DNA from: Candidatus Binatus sp.
Lineage (GTDB): Bacteria > Desulfobacterota > Binatia > Binatales > Binataceae
Direction of reading: 5' to 3'
DNA: 64,000 nt
Assembly: GCF_030646925.1 (NCBI RefSeq)
Contig: NZ_JAUSKL010000069.1
Location: 1 to 64,000 of the forward strand
The translations under genes and the position numbers were made by a program. A model generated the notes under the pieces. It was not told the origin of the DNA. It did not search any database and was given only the letters and a program-made list of their open reading frames with translations. How positions within the stretch are numbered: position 1 is the first letter of the stretch; the number at the start of each line of letters is the position of its first letter. This document shows positions 54,523 to 63,359 of this stretch, one piece after another.

Positions 54523-55425
54523 CTATATGACGCCCGCGAGCTTGAGAAGCGCCGACATGCTCGGATGCGCGCTCGCCGGGAAGCGCGCGCCGTAGCGCGC
54601 GATGTCGAGCGAAGTCGCCCGGATGAAGCGATCGCGCTCGCTTGCATGATGAAGCGAAATCCACTCGGCGAGTTCGGCGGCGCATCGCGCGTCGCCGGCG
54701 ATGCTCTCCGCAAGGTCGTGAATCGCGACGCCGTGCAGGCCGCCGAGCAGGCATTCGGCGAAATATCCGATCTGGCCGGCGCGATCGAAGCCGGGCAATT
54801 CAAGTTGCAGCGCGTCCTCGAGCGAGAGCAGCCGATGCATCGCAAATTCTTCGCGCCGCGAGCGAATCGCGGGATCTCCGCTGCCATCGACACCCGATGC
54901 GATCGCGATGATCGCGACGCGGCCGTCGTCGATTTCCACGGGATGGAAAACGTAGCCGGGCGAAGTGTAATCGAGCAGGCTCCGGAGCGCGCGCCGATAG
55001 CCGAGCAGATCGAAGCGGGTCGCGCGCGCAATCGCGAGCAGATACTCGCCGAGTGGCTGGCCGGCGCGGTCCGCAATCGCGATCAGGCGCTCGAAAGCCT
55101 CGGGCGAATATTCCTCGCGGCGCGCAATCATCGGCGCGGATTCGCGATCGAAGGTGAGCAGCAATCCGCCGATACCACTATTGCCGCCGGCGATCGACGC
55201 CCATATCGGCGCCGCGCGATCGATCGGCTCGATATCCATCGCGAGATAACTGCCGTGGCTCGACGGCTTGGCGAGCCCGCGCCGCGCGTTGTGAATCGAG
55301 ACCGGCTCGGCGTCGAGTGCGATCAGACGGCTGTTGCCGGCGCGCCGCTCACCCAGCAGGCCATAGCCGCTCAGCAGCGACCCGTATCCGATAACCAGCA
55401 GCCTACGATTCGATTCTTCCGCCAC
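54523..55425 (-). CDS. Gamma-glutamylcyclotransferase-like protein
   Basis: A 300-residue protein starting RLLVIGYGSLLSGYGLLGER, the YGSL motif of the gamma-glutamylcyclotransferase fold, followed by RLIALDAEPVSIHNARRGLA and GGLLLTFDRESAPMIARREE, where the Glu of REE is at the expected catalytic place. The C-terminal 130 residues are extra and helical. It may act on glutathione or gamma-glutamyl amines. The start is GTG at 55425. It lies between the redoxin and queD genes on the same strand, within 40 bases of each. Confidence 0.7.
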   Translation of the reverse strand: MAEESNRRLLVIGYGSLLSGYGLLGERRAGNSRLIALDAEPVSIHNARRGLAKPSSHGSYLAMDIEPIDRAAPIWASIAGGNSGIGGLLLTFDRESAPMIARREEYSPEAFERLIAIADRAGQPLGEYLLAIARATRFDLLGYRRALRSLLDYTSPGYVFHPVEIDDGRVAIIAIASGVDGSGDPAIRSRREEFAMHRLLSLEDALQLELPGFDRAGQIGYFAECLLGGLHGVAIHDLAESIAGDARCAAELAEWISLHHASERDRFIRATSLDIARYGARFPASAHPSMSALLKLAGVI

Positions 55426-55458: not shown

Positions 55459-56559
55459 TTACTGGATGTCTTCGGCGGCCGGATAATATTTTCCTTCGCC
55501 CAGCGAATCGACGGCAGCCCAGAACTCGGGCCCGCCCGCTTTCATCGGATCCTCGAGCGCCCACGCCTGGCGCTTGTAATTCCAGCTCTCGGGACAAAGC
55601 CGCTTCGCTTCCTCGAAATATTTCTTCGCCGCGTCGGCGTGCCCTTGTTCGAACAGGTACTCGCCGAGCCGAAAATTTGCCGCCGCGCGAACGTGCGAAT
55701 CGTCCGGCGTATGCATCCGGCGCAGAACCTCGTCCTCGCTGAGCGCAAAGCGGCTGGCCGATCCGTTGGCGACCCAGTCGCGGAGCGCATCGAGATACGC
55801 CTTGCGCTTGTTCTGCAACTCGTTCATCGCTTCGGTCGGTATCGAAAAATTGGTGCGATCCATCTTGCGGAACGCGTCGGTCACGCCGGCCGGCTCGCTC
55901 GGGCGAACGATCTTTCCGCGCTCGTCGATCCACACCGCGGTCGGCACGTTGACCATGTCGTAAAGTTCGGCGACGACGTGACGCCGATCGATCAAGCTCG
56001 GATAAGTGGGGTTCGCGGCCTTGATCCACGGCTCGGCGGCCGCATTGCCGCCGCTGTCGAACGCAATCGCGATTGGCACAAATCCTTTGGGTCCGAGTTC
56101 TTCGTAAAGGGCCTGCCAGACCGGCAGGTCAAAGCGGCATCCTCACCATGAGGCCCATGAAACGACCAGCACCTTCTTGCCGCGATAATCCGCCAGCGAA
56201 TGCAGGTTGCCGTCGAGATCGGGCAGCGTGAAATTCGGGCCTTCGAGCGAAGTCAGACTGCGCTTGCGATCCGACGCGGCCTCGCCGACGCACCACACCT
56301 GATGCTCCGTGTCGGCGACCACGGGCCGTCCGAGCAGGCCCGCGAGCGCAACCAGGTTGTATCGATCGCCTGCGACGACGCCGTCTTTCAGCGACGCGGG
56401 CACCGGGATGCATACGTCGCCGCGGCAAAAGCCCTCGGGGCGATGCGTCCAGCCGGCGATTCGCTCGAGATCGGCGGCCTTCAGCCACAGTGCGGAACCT
56501 TTTTCCTGGGCGTCCACCCCGTGGATGACTTGCTCGCCATAGATGATGTCGATCGCCAT
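55459..56559 (-). CDS. Redoxin (TlpA/AhpC-TSA-like), probable selenoprotein with UGC site
   Basis: Read through the TGA at 56143-56145, the frame is 366 residues from ATG 56559 (GAGG upstream). An N-domain of about 100 residues with a Cys pair (EGFCRGDVCIPVP) precedes a thioredoxin-fold domain: PNFTLPDLDGNLHSLADYRG, VLVVSWASW, then TGA, then GCRFDLPVWQALYEELG, FVPIAIAFDSGG and NVPTAVWIDERGKIVRPSE. The C-terminal 150 residues are helical (RLGEYLFEQGHADAAKKYFE). The family has WCGC here, so TGA sits exactly at the first active-site Cys (Sec139-Gly-Cys141). A 6-bp hairpin with GGTCT loop follows 14 bases later. Without read-through both halves would be useless, so selenocysteine is the best reading. 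Confidence 0.78.
56112..56128 (-). promoter_or_regulatory. Bacterial SECIS-like hairpin in redoxin gene
   Basis: On the minus strand CCTGCC, loop GGTCT, GGCAGG: a perfect 6-bp stem starting 15 bases after the TGA, with the loop beginning 21 bases after it. The loop GGUCU equals the SelB-contacting apical sequence of the E. coli fdhF SECIS, which begins about 19 bases after its UGA. Confidence 0.7.
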
Positions 56560-56613
56560 TGCGGTTGCCTCGGTTTGGATTTCACCACAACTAAGCGCCG
56601 ACACCAAACCGAA

Positions 56614-59600
56614 TCAAATCCAGAGAATTGCACCTCTCACAGGGCATCCGGTGCTGCGAGCGAGCGCCCGCATGTACAAATCGATCTGCGCGCGATACTC
56701 GTCGAGGCGGCCGCCGAGGCCGGCGTCGGTTTTGAAATCGACGACAGTCCACGAGACGGCGCCCGCGATTTTTTCCGCAAACACGAGGTCGGCGATTCCT
56801 TCGACCGCGGCGCCGTCGTCGAGCGTGAGCATCAGCGGGCATTCGCGCATCGCAGTTTGCGCGACTCGCGCGCGGCGCATCAGCGAAGAATCGAGCGCTG
56901 CTACCACCGCGATCGCGGCGGCGGCGACATCGTTTTCCGGCGCGCCGAGGATTCGCCCCGCGCCGGCCGCGATACGCGCAACCTGCGCCGCGTCGGCGTC
57001 GAACGGCGTGCGGAGCATCGCGAGATGCACCAGCGTGCCAAACTCTTTGCCGTGCGGGCGTCCCGCTTCGCGCGCGATGCGCTCGATCGCGATCGCGTCG
57101 GCATATTTTTGCGCAGCGTCGGGCGCCGCGATCGCAAGTTCGGTTGCGGTGCTCACCTTCAGCGACGGCATCGCGCCAGCCGCGAGCATCGCCGCTCGAT
57201 TCGCGCGCCAAGCCTCGTAGGCTTGCTTGCCTTGTTCCGAAACGAGCTTTTTTTCATCGACTTGCAGCAGCTTGTTTTGCCTGAGGCCCATCTGCTCTTC
57301 GACTTGCAACTCGAGGCGCGACGGATCCCACCAGACCACGTTGTGTTCGCCGTCGTGCGCGCGATGCAATCCCGGCATCACCGATTTATTTCGTAGTGGC
57401 GCTCGCGCCGGACGCGTCAGCACGCTGTCATCGCCAAACTCGGGGCATCCCGCGTGCTTCGGCATCAGCGGAGGACGCCGATTTTGCGTCGCGGGATATA
57501 TCACTGGATCGAGGCGATCGAGCCATCCGTCGCGTTCGTTGGGCCGCGGCGTCTGCGCGAACGGATCGACGTCGCCGACCGTCGGCACGACGATCAAATC
57601 GCGCGCACGAGTCGTCGCGACGTAGAGCAAGCGCTCAGCTTCCCGCTTGTCGCGTTCGAGTTCCTCGGCATTGTGATCGAGCAATTCGCGCGGAGCACAG
57701 CCGGCCAACTCCATCGCACAGAGCCGGCTCGCGGGCTCTGCGTAGCGCGACGCCTCGGCGCGAGTTTCGTTGCAGGTCGGATCGGCGAGAATGACGATCG
57801 GAAATTCGAGGCCCTTCGCGCGATGCACCGTCATGATGCGCACGCCTTCGGTGCCTTCCTCGACGATCGGCGTCTCGCTCGCCTCGTCGCGATCGGCGCG
57901 CGCTTCGAGTTCATCCACGAAGCCGCGAAACGAGGTCGCGCCGCTGCGCGCCTCGTAGCGCCGCGCCTGATCCATGATGCGCATGACGTTGGCGAGAGCC
58001 TGCTCGCCGGTCGGCCAGATCGCGATTCCGGCGTGTGCGCGCGTTTTCGCGAGCACCATCGCGAGCGTCTCAGCAATCGGACGGCGATTGCGCCCGCGAT
58101 GCAGATCCCTGATCACGTCGAGCGCGTCTTTGACTTCCTTGAGATGCGGCGCCAAGCCGTCCGGAATTTTTCGGAACGGATGCAAGCTGCCGATCGTCTC
58201 GCGGAACTCGAGCAGCGCGGCGTCGGAAAGCGCGAACAGCGGCCCGTGCAACGATGCGAACACCAGCAGCTCGTCGTCGGGACGCTCGATCGCGCCGAGC
58301 ACGTTGCGAATCGCGACGACTTCCTCGCGCTCGTTGAACGAACCGCCCTTGACCAGCACGTGCGGCAGATGCCGCGCTTCGAGTTCGCGCAAGTACGCGC
58401 GGGTGATGTCCTGGCCGAAGGAATTCATGCGGCGGAACAGCACGCAGATGTGGCGCGGACGAATCGCAACCGGCGTGTCGGGCGCCTCGCGCTCGGTGAC
58501 TCGCCATCCGCTTTTATCGACCAGCCACTTTATGAAGGCAGCGATTGCCTTCGGAATCGATTCGTCGATTTTCCAATTGAAGACGCGACCGTAATCGCCA
58601 TACGGCTCCGGAACCGGCAGCGCGACAATCGCCGGCTGGCCTTCGATCTGCTGACGATACTGCATCAACGGCGCGTATTGCGGCTGCGAGCGCGATTCCT
58701 GATTCATCAACGGAGCGAAGGCGGCGTTGGCCATATGCTGCAATTCCGGATTGGCGCGAAAGCTGACGGTCAAATGCTCGAGCGCGGCGCCGTGCAACAG
58801 CAGCATCTGCTTCACACCCTGATAGAGCGCTACGTCGGCGCGGCGAAATCGATAGATCGATTGCTTGGGATCGCCCACGATAAAGAGCCGCCCCGGATGC
58901 GGTCGCACGCGGCGCCAATCCGACTCGGCCGGATCGGAAGCTGAAAGCAGGATCAGGATCTCCGCTTGCAGCGGATCGGTGTCCTGGAATTCATCGACAA
59001 AAATGTGCGTGAAGCGCTTTTGCAAAGTCGCGCGCACCGCGGCGTTGTCGCGCACGAGATCGCGCGCTTTCAGCAGCAAGTCGAGAAAGTCGAGGCGGCC
59101 CGCGCGGCTTTTCAACTCTTCGTAATAGCCCACGACCGGCCACAGTTCGTCGCGCAAAAGAGGAGCGAGATTAGCGCCCGCGGTCTCGCGAAATTTCTTG
59201 AGCCGCTCCCGCAGCGCCTCGCGACGGCGGAAAACCTCGCCCCGTTCGACCTCGCCAAAGTCGCCGCCGAAGCCGCGCCAATCCCAATGCCGGCCGCGCG
59301 AATTGGATACCAGCACCGATTCGAGCGCGTCGTGATCGCGGCCGCGGACCGATTCAAGCCGAATCGCCTCGCTGACCGGTTTCGCGATGGCGCTTAGACT
59401 TTTACCCAGCCAATCGTCCGGACTGCTCTCATCGGCGAGTCTGCCGAACGCGAGAATTTCTTTTATCAGCGAATCGATCTCCGAATCGCGATCGAACGGC
59501 GACGGCTGCCACGGAGAATCGAAATCGCGCCATTGCAAAAGATCGTAGGCGGCGCGCCGCGCGATTTCGCGCGGCCCCGTGCGCTGCGAAAGATCGCGCC

Positions 59601-60093
59601 GCCGCAGCAGCCGGCGCATCCCCTCGCCCGGATTTTCGAGCACCATCTCGAACCACCGGTCGAACGCCGCGTCGAACATCTCGCTCGCGACATCCTCGGG
59701 CGCAACTTCGAACATCGGATCGACGCGCGCTTCCACCGGACGCTCGCGCAGCAGGTCGGCGCAGAATGAATGGATCGTGCCGATGCGCGCCTCTTCGAGT
59801 TGCTCGAGCGCCTTGTCGAGCCGCGCGCGAACTTCGACGTCGAGGGCCGCGCCATGCCGCGCCTGCTCGATCTCGGCGCGCAGCCTGAGCTTCAATTCGC
59901 CGGCCGCTTTTTCCGTGAACGTGACCGCGACGATTTGCGAGAGTTGGCCGCGCCCCGACTCGATCACCGACACGATTCGATTCACCAGCGCCGTGGTCTT
60001 GCCGGTGCCAGCCGCCGCTTCGATCACGAGCGTGGTATCGAGATCGTTGCGGATGCGATCGCGAACCTGCTGATCGGATGGAATCGCGCTCAT
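56614..60093 (-). CDS. addA: ATP-dependent helicase/nuclease subunit AddA
   Basis: A 1159-residue UvrD-like helicase with C-terminal nuclease. Walker A is VIEAAAGTGKTTALVNRIV; further helicase motifs are VAVTFTEKAAGELKLRLR, HIFVDEFQDTDPLQAEIL, RLFIVGDPKQSIYRFRRADV and VRIMTVHRAKGLEFPIVIL. The RecB-type nuclease is at the end: DLVFAEKIAGAVSWTVVDFK followed by TDAGLGGRLDEYRAQIDLYM. With AddB it resects double-strand breaks for RecA loading. The ATG at 60093 overlaps the addB stop by four bases. It ends 54 bases before the redoxin start. Confidence 0.95.
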   Translation of the reverse strand: MSAIPSDQQVRDRIRNDLDTTLVIEAAAGTGKTTALVNRIVSVIESGRGQLSQIVAVTFTEKAAGELKLRLRAEIEQARHGAALDVEVRARLDKALEQLEEARIGTIHSFCADLLRERPVEARVDPMFEVAPEDVASEMFDAAFDRWFEMVLENPGEGMRRLLRRRDLSQRTGPREIARRAAYDLLQWRDFDSPWQPSPFDRDSEIDSLIKEILAFGRLADESSPDDWLGKSLSAIAKPVSEAIRLESVRGRDHDALESVLVSNSRGRHWDWRGFGGDFGEVERGEVFRRREALRERLKKFRETAGANLAPLLRDELWPVVGYYEELKSRAGRLDFLDLLLKARDLVRDNAAVRATLQKRFTHIFVDEFQDTDPLQAEILILLSASDPAESDWRRVRPHPGRLFIVGDPKQSIYRFRRADVALYQGVKQMLLLHGAALEHLTVSFRANPELQHMANAAFAPLMNQESRSQPQYAPLMQYRQQIEGQPAIVALPVPEPYGDYGRVFNWKIDESIPKAIAAFIKWLVDKSGWRVTEREAPDTPVAIRPRHICVLFRRMNSFGQDITRAYLRELEARHLPHVLVKGGSFNEREEVVAIRNVLGAIERPDDELLVFASLHGPLFALSDAALLEFRETIGSLHPFRKIPDGLAPHLKEVKDALDVIRDLHRGRNRRPIAETLAMVLAKTRAHAGIAIWPTGEQALANVMRIMDQARRYEARSGATSFRGFVDELEARADRDEASETPIVEEGTEGVRIMTVHRAKGLEFPIVILADPTCNETRAEASRYAEPASRLCAMELAGCAPRELLDHNAEELERDKREAERLLYVATTRARDLIVVPTVGDVDPFAQTPRPNERDGWLDRLDPVIYPATQNRRPPLMPKHAGCPEFGDDSVLTRPARAPLRNKSVMPGLHRAHDGEHNVVWWDPSRLELQVEEQMGLRQNKLLQVDEKKLVSEQGKQAYEAWRANRAAMLAAGAMPSLKVSTATELAIAAPDAAQKYADAIAIERIAREAGRPHGKEFGTLVHLAMLRTPFDADAAQVARIAAGAGRILGAPENDVAAAAIAVVAALDSSLMRRARVAQTAMRECPLMLTLDDGAAVEGIADLVFAEKIAGAVSWTVVDFKTDAGLGGRLDEYRAQIDLYMRALARSTGCPVRGAILWI

Positions 60094-63000
60094 GGCATCT
60101 CGCGGAGCCGCGTCAGCGCGTCGAGCCGCGGCTTCGGCTTTCTTGCGGAGCGGCGCTGCTCGTACGGCCCGCAGACGCGCTTGTAATCGCACCAGTCGCA
60201 TTCGCGATCGCCGGGCGCCGCGGGCAGAAATCCGCGACTCAGCGCGTCGCCGAGAATCGCGACGAACTCGCGCGCCGATTTGCGCGCGCCGTCGTTGATC
60301 TCGACGCTTCGTTCCTGGTAGCCGCCGGTGGCAGTGCAGTAATAGAGCCGCCCCACCCCGATCGGCTCGTGCAAAACGTGCTCGGCCGCGAGCGCATAAA
60401 AGACCGGCTGCAACGTTTTACCGCCGCCGATCACGAAATGCTTGTCGGCGCGCACTTTGCCGGTCTTGTGATCGGTGACGCGGATTCGCCCGTCCGGGTC
60501 GCGCTCGATCAAATCGATCGAACCGCGCAGCGTCAGTCCGCCCTCGATTGCGACCGGATCCGGCGAACTGCGCGGGTCGGCCTGCGCGCGATCGTGAAGC
60601 CCGAAGCCAAGCTCGAACGCTTCCGGCGTCCAATGCTCCGGGTCGTCGGCCGCGCGCCGCAGCCATTCGCGCAAGTCGGCGCGGATTCCTTCGATACCGT
60701 CGTCCCACACGCGCTCGATCGCCGGCGCCAGCTTCTCGCGCCATCGCGCCGCGGCTTCCTCGATTCGCTCGTCGAGCAACCCCGACGCGTCGTCGAGATT
60801 GTCGCGCGTGACCGGCAGCGCATCCAGTTCGCGCAGCTCGCTCAATATCTCGTACTGCACTTCGGCGAAAATACTCCCGCGCGTCAGCGGTTCGAGCATC
60901 TCGATCGCGTCGGGCTCCTCGCGCGGCTCGAGACGATGAATCGCCTGGAGCAGAAATCGATACGGGCAGGCTGCGAAATGTTGCAGCGCGGTCGGCGAAT
61001 AGGATCGCGCCGACAATTGATGACGTCCCAATGCGCTGAGCGACGACGGCTCGGGATCGACCAGCCCGTCGGCGAAGGTCCATCGCTTCAGCCATTTGCG
61101 CGCGCGCGATCGCAGAGCGCGGCCGAGATGATCGTTGGCGTCGAGCAAATAATTCGCAGTGCCAATCGTCGTTTCCGGGTCGGCGTCGACGAGCTTGTCG
61201 AGCACCGCGAGATCGAATTCGGCGTCGTCGATCGCGTCATCGGGATTTTCCGGCGCGGGCCATCCGAGCCGCGACGCACGCTCGGACGCAGCGCGCCGCG
61301 CGAGTTCGTCGAAGCCGGGCAACTGTCCTTCCGCGGCGCGCAGAATTTCAAGCGCGTAGAAAGATGGAACGCGCGGACGCCCCTGATCGAGATCGACGCG
61401 TGGGTACGAAAAAATCGCGCGCTCGCGCGCCGCGCCGGCGGCGATTCGAAGCGCCAGCCGCTCCGCGGAGGAACGGCGCTCGACCCGCGCGAGCATCGGG
61501 CTGAGCCGCGCGCGCATCGAGTCGGGCAGGAGCGGATCCTCGATCAGCTTGCGCGGAAAAACCCGCTCGGCGAGCCCGGGCGCGATCACGACGTCGAACG
61601 CCATGCCCTTCGCGCGCCACGGTGAAGCGACGAACACCGCGCCGTGGCGGCGTTTTCTGCGCGGAGTCTCGAGCCGGCCGAGGCGCACGCCGAGCACCAT
61701 CCGCACTTCGTCGAGGCCGATCGGACCGACCGGCGCCATCGGCTCGAGCTCGCCGAGCGCCGCGAGCACCGGCTCGGCATCGCGAATCGCGAGCGCGACC
61801 AAATCGCGCAGATACTGAAGCCACTCTCCCCACGTCGTGGAAATCGGACGCGCGCCGAGCCGATTCAGAATCGGCATCGCGACCTTGGTCAAGTGATCGA
61901 GATCGAGAATCCGCCGTTCGAGTCCCGCCACGTGCGTATCGTCGTCCTCATATTCGGCGCGCCGCGCGAGGAGCTCATTGCGCAGTCCGCCGAGCCGCCG
62001 TTCCCAGCGCTCGGCGCTGCCAATTACCGCCGCATCGACGATCAACCGCTCCCATCGCCACGGCGCGCGCACGGTTCCTGCGACCACCGGAATCGGATCT
62101 GAACTCTCCGGCTCCGACTCGGGCTGATCGTTCTCGATTTCCAAATCGTCGGCCAGCGGAGCCGGCGCCAGTTCGCTGTCGGGACTCGCGATCGTTGAGT
62201 TGCTCGGTGACGCATCGGCGTCGGGCACTTGCGCGAGCGAAAGATATTCGGCAAAGCGGCTGGCGGAAAGATCCTCCGACGCGCAACTGAGCAGCGCCAG
62301 CAGCGCACGCCCGCCGGGCTCGGGACGACGCGTGCCGCGCGCGAAGTACGCGGGAATTTCGGCGCGCGCGAGTGCCTCCTGCAAGTATGGAGCGTAGCGC
62401 ACCGGCTCATGGAGCAGTACCGCGATTCGATCGAAGCGCACGCCGCGCCGCGCTTCCGCGCAGATACGCCGCGCGATTTCGACGCACTCATGCATCTCGC
62501 CCGCCGCGGAAATCATCGCGACGGTGTCATCGACGTCGCGCTCCGGCACAGGACTGTCGCCAAACAGATGCGATTGCAGGCGAGCGAGCGAGGTCGCACC
62601 GCCGTCGTCGGAAGACTTCGTTGCGACCGTCTTCGCCGCCGTGCCGAGCGCCTGCTCGAGCAGAGAAATCACGTGCGTATCGCCCGTCGGCGCCGTCGCG
62701 AGGATCGAGGGCGATCGCGCCGCCAGCGCGGCCAGCAGATCGCGCTCGAGCGCGCCGTCGATCGACGGATCGAGCAGCAGCATCGGAAGGCCGGCGAATC
62801 GCGGGATTAAATCCGCGCGCACCGCATCGGCCGCGATTTGCAGCATCGCGGCCCGATCGATCAGCTTCGCGGCGGCCAGCTCCGCGTCGAATCGCTCGAG
62901 CATCGCGGCCAAGGATTCGCCCGCCGAATCGAGCGCGCGCAATTGCTCGGCCGTGACGTTGTTCAGCCGAAGCTCCGCGAGCGTGCGCGCCAGCGCCCGG

Positions 63001-63359
63001 GGAAATCCTGGACGTTCGAGCACCGGCTCGAAATACGAATCCGCCTTCGACGACGCCAGCCGAAATACCGCGCGCGTCGCGACCGCTTCCGCCGCAAGAC
63101 CGTCGGCGGGTGCGAGTCCGGCCTCCGCCATCCGATCGGCGGCGAGCAATCCGACCAGTCGATTGAGGGTCAGGCGATGCACCCCGAGCATCGAGCCGTG
63201 CGCGATCGCAAAATCGCGCACCAGGTCGTCGGCAGCCTCCGGCACCGACGCGATAACCAGCACCTCGCTCGCCCTGGGCTGCAATTCGAGCCACGCCCGC
63301 GCTGCGGCAATCCGCTCCGACGCGCGCGGGCTGACGACTATTTCAGATTTGTCCGGCAT
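60090..63359 (-). CDS. addB: Helicase/nuclease subunit AddB
   Basis: A 1089-residue inactive-helicase/nuclease partner of AddA. The N-half is a degenerate helicase (SERIAAARAWLELQPRASEV; EPGGRALLALLSCASEDLSA). The nuclease half holds GLTLRGSIDLIERDPDGRIR and VTDHKTGKVRADKHFVIGGG (motif D...D-x-K). A Cys in FAACPYRFLLQAIHRLEP and three in RECDWCDYKRVCGPYE are the iron-sulfur cluster ligands of AddB. Acidic linkers (LEIENDQPESEPESSDPIPV) occur in the middle. It overlaps addA by four bases and forms one operon with it. Confidence 0.92.
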   Translation of the reverse strand: MPDKSEIVVSPRASERIAAARAWLELQPRASEVLVIASVPEAADDLVRDFAIAHGSMLGVHRLTLNRLVGLLAADRMAEAGLAPADGLAAEAVATRAVFRLASSKADSYFEPVLERPGFPRALARTLAELRLNNVTAEQLRALDSAGESLAAMLERFDAELAAAKLIDRAAMLQIAADAVRADLIPRFAGLPMLLLDPSIDGALERDLLAALAARSPSILATAPTGDTHVISLLEQALGTAAKTVATKSSDDGGATSLARLQSHLFGDSPVPERDVDDTVAMISAAGEMHECVEIARRICAEARRGVRFDRIAVLLHEPVRYAPYLQEALARAEIPAYFARGTRRPEPGGRALLALLSCASEDLSASRFAEYLSLAQVPDADASPSNSTIASPDSELAPAPLADDLEIENDQPESEPESSDPIPVVAGTVRAPWRWERLIVDAAVIGSAERWERRLGGLRNELLARRAEYEDDDTHVAGLERRILDLDHLTKVAMPILNRLGARPISTTWGEWLQYLRDLVALAIRDAEPVLAALGELEPMAPVGPIGLDEVRMVLGVRLGRLETPRRKRRHGAVFVASPWRAKGMAFDVVIAPGLAERVFPRKLIEDPLLPDSMRARLSPMLARVERRSSAERLALRIAAGAARERAIFSYPRVDLDQGRPRVPSFYALEILRAAEGQLPGFDELARRAASERASRLGWPAPENPDDAIDDAEFDLAVLDKLVDADPETTIGTANYLLDANDHLGRALRSRARKWLKRWTFADGLVDPEPSSLSALGRHQLSARSYSPTALQHFAACPYRFLLQAIHRLEPREEPDAIEMLEPLTRGSIFAEVQYEILSELRELDALPVTRDNLDDASGLLDERIEEAAARWREKLAPAIERVWDDGIEGIRADLREWLRRAADDPEHWTPEAFELGFGLHDRAQADPRSSPDPVAIEGGLTLRGSIDLIERDPDGRIRVTDHKTGKVRADKHFVIGGGKTLQPVFYALAAEHVLHEPIGVGRLYYCTATGGYQERSVEINDGARKSAREFVAILGDALSRGFLPAAPGDRECDWCDYKRVCGPYEQRRSARKPKPRLDALTRLREMP

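Follow-up and report, generated by a model that had tools for sequence, protein, structure and literature searches.

A ResA-like redoxin with a probable selenocysteine in a U-G-C active site from Candidatus Binatus: a member of a sparse, already catalogued family

The window, by which we mean the whole stretch of 64,000 nucleotides of Candidatus Binatus sp. DNA that was analysed, carries on its minus strand a gene (55459-56559; 366 codons and a stop, from ATG to TAA) in which a single TGA lies in frame. That codon, at 56143-56145, very probably stands for selenocysteine in the active site of a protein with the thioredoxin fold. Comparisons at the level of sequence give us high confidence that the product is a selenoprotein with a redox-active U-G-C site, a confidence that concerns neither the electron relay considered below nor the question of whether the substrate is a disulfide or a peroxide. 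The interpretation of the gene in a preliminary description, as encoding a selenocysteine redoxin, is supported by the presence of the sel genes, the conservation of the TGA and the existence of cysteine homologues.

The gene and its in-frame TGA

The minus-strand frame is open from the ATG at 56559 to the TAA at 55459 except for the TGA at 56143-56145, which confirms that, as first proposed, the redoxin frame continues across this codon. The TGA, which is found at the same site in relatives, occupies the nucleophile position of the redoxin. Read as U it gives WASWUGC at residues 135-141, in which Sec139, Gly140 and Cys141 (56137-56145) make up a U-G-C motif that is one residue shorter than the ResA-type CXXC. 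Upstream of the ATG the frame can be extended by at most 18 codons (open frame 384 codons).

A mechanical ORF listing splits the gene into two ORFs (56143-56607 and 55459-56079), and this is the point in favour of taking the UGA as an ordinary stop in a decayed or split redoxin, the downstream part of which would restart, for example, at GTG 56079. Against this, the same TGA is found, with conserved flanks on both sides, in 100 of the 102 distinct loci collected, the other two having cysteine (12 of the 100, second-type paralogues, were picked by a motif containing U and are not independent evidence). The residues that are invariant in 68 aligned rows (W138, C141, R142, L145, W148, D191, N204 and W210) include R142, L145, W148, D191 and N204 downstream of the codon. 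A stop that splits an active-site motif and is conserved across phyla is hard to explain, and we regard this alternative as extremely unlikely.

Conservation and distribution

The TGA is present at the site in 83 of 85 loci, or in 76 of 78 after the removal of seven duplicates. The family is sparse, with 7 holders among 395 genomes sampled in the phylum of the window and 13 among 400 in the phylum of L097, one of the two cysteine loci; 12 of these 13 have the TGA and the thirteenth is L097 itself. Within the order of the window, the N-terminal domain of the family occurs in 23 of 41 genomes, and in every strong match extending across residue 139 a TGA is the only stop and occurs once. Paralogues occur within single genomes. 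The window genome itself has a second family gene (L055; G000, C87:46572-47729, minus strand), with the TGA and an intact hairpin, which represents a second sub-type in the order whose redoxin domain is longer by an insertion of some 20 residues.

By their labels, the carriers are 'Candidatus Binataceae' and 'Deltaproteobacteria' assemblies (relatives of the window), Rokubacteria, Acidobacteriota, Chloroflexota, Pseudomonadota (Reyranella), Actinomycetota, Myxococcota and Planctomycetota. Going by these labels, we place the holders in at least six phyla; the count is kept to this lower bound because Planctomycetota is represented by one row nested among Acidobacteriota rows, and because many of the rows labelled 'Myxococcota' come from 'Deltaproteobacteria' assemblies, which may be members of the phylum of the window. 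This distribution bears on a doubt raised at the outset, that a sequencing or assembly error might have turned a cysteine codon into TGA. The window genome is a draft of 126 contigs; however, independent genomes share the TGA, including that of a named strain, Reyranella aquatilis KCTC 52223 (L076), and conservation of the codon across at least six phyla, in assemblies independent of one another, excludes such an error for practical purposes, making it the least probable of the explanations that we weighed.

The SECIS hairpin

Fourteen nucleotides after the TGA there is a hairpin (56112-56128, minus strand) with a perfect 6-bp stem, CCTGCC/GGCAGG (arms 56123-56128 and 56112-56117), and the loop GGTCT (56118-56122), all as previously described. 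The likeness to E. coli fdhF in loop and distance also holds, GGTCT lying 18 nt after the UGA in fdhF and 20 nt after it here. The rule for bacterial SECIS elements, in the portion of PMC13188914 consulted, is a stem of 4-16 bp, a loop of 3-9 nt with G in the first two loop bases, 16-37 nt from UGA to loop and an energy of at most -7.5 kcal/mol. The window element falls within these bounds (6 bp, 5 nt, GG, 20 nt and -10.0 kcal/mol for the 17-nt hairpin alone), and the hairpins of some relatives, also taken alone, reach only -6.6 kcal/mol. An Rfam scan of 56060-56180, up to an E value of 10, gave one 12.6-bit match, to an unrelated family and far under the cut-off.

By itself, the window hairpin is weak evidence; the family-wide codon constraint is strong. 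The single hairpin carries little weight for three reasons. Synonymous recodings of the window gene give all six pairs in 44% of cases, because the codons for D-L-P-x-W-Q (D-L-P-V-W-Q in the window peptide) are nearly self-complementary. A comparable hairpin, defined as a 6-bp Watson-Crick stem, correctly spaced from the TGA, with a G in the first two loop bases, follows 47 of the 1652 TGA triplets of the window (2.8%). Lastly, when the 46 nt from the TGA onwards are folded, the structure of lowest energy is a competing hairpin, GACC paired with GGTC, instead of the SECIS stem. This competing fold is possible only with loops like GGTCT, found in 25 of 76 loci, and it is therefore not the conserved element.

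Across the family, 75 of the 76 loci (L052 and L108, which are identical over the compared stretch, are both counted) keep all six pairs, the exception being L082 with five, and at loop bases 2-3 all 76 have either GG or GT. The full stem is present in 66 of 66 non-redundant genes, against 20.9 expected from the codon use of each gene. The leucine codon within the stem is CTG or TTG in all 66, compared with 900 of 1956 leucine codons elsewhere in the same genes, and CTC, the commonest leucine codon elsewhere in these genes, is absent at the stem position. Glutamine is encoded by CAA only alongside TTG for leucine (7 of 7), which is a synonymous compensatory exchange. In 73 distinct rows, 438 of 438 base-pair cells are paired, and sliding the partner column by 1-3 positions, as a control, leaves only 27-60% paired. 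The same rows contain 20 cells with double-sided changes against 3.7 in shuffles, a comparison that is inflated by relatedness (the slid-column controls share the same inflation); the pairs that show a double-sided change at all number two, which is not above the shuffles (268 of 500 reach it). Taken as sequence evidence, these observations show that the hairpin after the TGA is under selection across the family.

The rows for these counts were assembled as follows. The duplicates L058-L063 (of L021-L024, L026 and L027) were removed, and L154 is L097 again. Clustering at 88% identity reduced 87 rows to 67 and left out L020 (the window), L027, L123 and L124, of which L020 was restored for the codon-use and stem test on 66 genes. 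L152 and L158 are absent from the 438 cells, their active sites (WUSC and YUGC) having been missed by the motif search; both variant sites, WSSWUSC in L152 and ASYUGCAFD in L158, have the TGA and, by eye, an intact hairpin.

Selenocysteine decoding and the cysteine forms

A search of the same genome for selA, selB, selC and selD had been proposed, and all are present. The tRNA-Sec scores 74.2 bits and is given the anticodon tca by ARAGORN; selA scores 580 bits; selB is carried; and selD (L018, G000:C58:64690-65616) has one in-frame TGA, so that SelD of this genome, judged from its gene, is probably also a selenoprotein. The tRNA-Sec model gives weaker matches in all 14 control genomes, above the cut-off in five of them, and therefore only a high score together with the tca anticodon is counted.

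Among the TGA-carrying genomes tested, selA is found in 44 of 46 (22 of 23 in the order, 3 of 3 and 19 of 20). Within the order this is uninformative, because selA is also present in 16 of the 18 genomes that lack the family. The two carriers in which selA was not found, G039 and G837, are what would favour a UGA read through with another amino acid, or by some route independent of selenocysteine; yet G039 has a tRNA-Sec of 74.2 bits, and the covariation of the SECIS hairpin, the 44 carriers with selA and the occurrence of the cysteine forms in two genomes without selA all stand against such readthrough, which we consider very improbable.

The cysteine forms are few. The preliminary description gave cysteine (WCGC) as the residue that relatives have at this place; most carry TGA, WCGC being found in one locus (L054, FSSWCGC) and WCSC in another (L097, a Dehalococcoidia assembly, WASWCSC). 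Exchange between U and C at the selenocysteine column thus exists among homologues, in these two loci only. In a tree the two cysteine rows are far apart and each lies among TGA rows: L097 falls in a Chloroflexota fork of nine rows (support 100/100), and L054 groups with two Actinomycetota rows (99/97). The tree, from which L147, L148 and L151 were left out, is midpoint-rooted, and the composition of the L054 row deviates from that of the alignment; because of both, we go no further than to infer from it a change from selenocysteine to cysteine.

Neither of the two cysteine-carrying genomes has selA, and one of them, G132, is rated 100% complete. The probability that both would fall among the 4 of 48 genomes without selA is about 0.005 (calculated by hand, ignoring relatedness). 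Their best tRNA-Sec scores, 50.8 and 47.0 bits, are formally at the cut-off of 47, but TGA carriers also give secondary matches of 48-49 bits, whereas the best matches in three TGA carriers reach 66.5-74.2 bits. Relics of the hairpin are visible by eye in both loci: L054 keeps the stem, with the loop CGCCT, and L097 has one mismatch and the loop GATCT, the G[G/T] of the loop being lost in both. Remnant SECIS-like structures in cysteine homologues descended from selenoproteins are described in PMC1794560, in the text available from it.

Architecture and fold of the protein

The two-domain architecture originally proposed gives way to three parts: an N-terminal domain with a CX4C pair, a redoxin domain and a C-terminal helical part. 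An AlphaFold2 model made with the 68-row alignment (mean pLDDT 95.4, pTM 0.91) has a strand-rich N-terminal domain, the redoxin domain and the helical part. The N-terminal domain (residues 1-100; 56260-56559, minus strand) has no Pfam match at an E value of 1, and the 29 matches that it gives in 41 genomes all fall within genes of this family; modelled alone it has a pLDDT of 92.5. Homology of this domain to chains in the PDB was considered and set aside as too weak (FimD N-terminal domain, E 0.37; 5h3k, Z 6.4 over 89 residues at 3.7 A). Its cysteine pair, C45-x4-C50 (56410-56427, minus strand), is placed on the two strands of a predicted beta-hairpin (43-46 and 49-51), and cysteine is found at both positions in 67 of 68 rows, the remaining row being a gap (alignment A2 excludes 13 of the 68 rows, whose N termini are short). 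In the model, the two could form a cross-strand disulfide.

The redoxin domain (residues 108-219; 55903-56238, minus strand) is of the AhpC-TSA, ResA/TlpA-like kind. The C-terminal helical part (residues 242-351; 55507-55836, minus strand) is drawn from the AlphaFold2 model and includes a weak TPR-like stretch at 292-324 (TPR_2, at 24.9 bits short of the cut-off of 27). Among PDB chains, those of the ResA type match best (2f9s, E 6.4e-11; 3gl3, Z 15.2 over 140 residues at 2.2 A), with 1st9 at Z 14.2 over 136 residues and 2.3 A. With ResA and TlpA the protein shares the thioredoxin fold, alignable over residues 103-266, in which Sec139 aligns with the first cysteine of the ResA-type CXXC and Cys141 with the second. 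It differs from them in having one residue fewer between Sec139 and Cys141, in its extra N- and C-terminal parts, and in leaving no room for a signal peptide or membrane anchor. ResA and TlpA have an export signal or a membrane anchor at the N terminus. The N terminus of the window protein is not hydrophobic (by eye), and the protein is probably soluble and cytoplasmic, because the at most 18 codons before the ATG leave no room for an export signal.

Relation to described families

The protein is a further member, as its profile match indicates, of a family already catalogued and without a described function. Against NCBIfam NF041054 (WAxxUGC_long, 'ResA-like WAxxUGC motif-containing protein') it scores 364.4 bits, where the curated cut-off is 300, and the match covers positions 8-352 of the 354 in the profile; the WAxxUGC motif is shared and no difference was found. 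The name and description of NF041054 are silent on function, on the CX4C pair and on SECIS. Of the suggestion that this would be a little-described selenoprotein, what stands is that no function is given; the family itself was already on record. A functional description was not found in the open-licence literature, and a term search of PMC12013277 gave no match.

It is likely that a group of UGC-containing proteins in the literature is this same long three-part family, the two having been compared by motif and domain descriptions. In the part of the 2008 GOS survey that was available (PMC2398784), a group named 'Prx-like (UGC-containing)' comprises 46 selenoproteins, commoner in nonmarine samples, and 855 cysteine homologues. 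In the corresponding parts of two reviews, a UGC-containing Prx-like selenoprotein family is listed (PMC9312934, 2022) and a UGC group is placed under TlpA disulfide reductase (PMC13188914, 2026); the two reviews name the sequences MBL6689828.1 and MDE0950781.1. As these sources describe it in the parts available, the group has a pfam00578 or TlpA-type domain and a UGC motif, as here; it is mostly of the cysteine form (855 against 46), in contrast to the 2 of 102 loci with cysteine in our collection. The UXC spacing, the invariant CX4C pair and the missing export signal are absent from the published descriptions in the portions at hand.

Genes nearby and other redoxins

No neighbouring gene is conserved beyond close relatives in 69 loci (68 and the window), and conserved neighbours as a clue to function were discarded, no ORF cluster being found at more than 10 of the 69; the largest cluster resembles wrong-frame translations of GC-rich DNA. 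A helicase gene lies 52-113 nt upstream in six close loci, the window included. The product of this gene in the window (56614-60201, minus strand; 54 nt before the selenoprotein gene) is a helicase of the UvrD type that also matches a PD-(D/E)XK nuclease, and further upstream (60090-63359, minus strand) lies the gene for another PD-(D/E)XK nuclease protein; we take the two to be, probably, an AddAB-like pair. Downstream (54523-55425, minus strand) is a gene for a 300-residue protein with no Pfam match at an E value of 1, and proteins similar to it by eye are encoded downstream in L060, L061 and L063.

A different redoxin with an in-frame TGA was also encountered in relatives (L163-L168). It has an RSADWUPYCR-type motif (UxxC) and a C-terminal part that ends in ECNDxxCKMP or similar. 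It resembles a Prx-like protein with a fused DsbC domain (Pfam11412) that is reported in the available part of PMC9402790, and is likely to be already known.

Proposed function

For the selenoprotein of the window, SelB and Sec-tRNA-Sec would bind the hairpin and Sec139 would be inserted at the UGA. Sec139, placed where the first helix of the ResA/TlpA-type thioredoxin fold begins, would then attack a disulfide (or peroxide) substrate, and Cys141 would resolve the product through a Sec-Gly-Cys selenenylsulfide. Our best guess, made from sequence comparison, is that the protein is a soluble Sec/Cys disulfide reductase that perhaps relays electrons through the CX4C pair. UXC departs from the normal CXXC spacing, so that disulfide exchange at this site is put forward as a proposal.

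The main rival on function is a selenoprotein that is a peroxidase, Prx- or GPx-like, in which the selenocysteine would reduce H2O2 or organic peroxides, and not a disulfide reductase or isomerase. The highest-scoring Pfam match is AhpC-TSA (PF00578, 63 bits), followed by Redoxin (54 bits); peroxiredoxins reach a Z of about 12 in the PDB comparison; and PMC2398784 and PMC9312934, in their available parts, name the UGC group Prx-like. However, ResA and DsbE-type chains outrank the peroxiredoxins in that comparison, the GSHPx (glutathione peroxidase) match, at 23.8 bits, is below its gathering score of 27, the selenocysteine aligns with the first cysteine of the ResA-type CXXC and has a cysteine two residues on, and PMC13188914, in the part consulted, lists a UGC group under TlpA disulfide reductase. 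We consider a peroxidase rather unlikely.

Returning to the disulfide reductase, C45-x4-C50 might re-reduce or re-oxidise the Sec-Gly-Cys site within the same chain, with the C-terminal helical part binding a partner, a scheme that we find plausible but doubtful. More tentative still is the full proposal of a one-chain selenium relay, in which a cytoplasmic UXC site on a ResA fold would be recharged by the invariant CX4C of a family-specific domain (41 genomes), and in which selenocysteine would almost never be exchanged for cysteine unless the genome had lost selenocysteine decoding. If such a relay is real, its chemistry would differ from that of the CXXC oxidoreductases.

Significance

NCBIfam already holds the family, and as a claim of discovery the result is therefore modest. 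It corrects a gene model where an ordinary ORF list splits at the TGA, and it describes a selenoprotein family with an unusually strict retention of selenocysteine. The UXC spacing and the invariant CX4C pair raise testable questions about why selenocysteine is kept.
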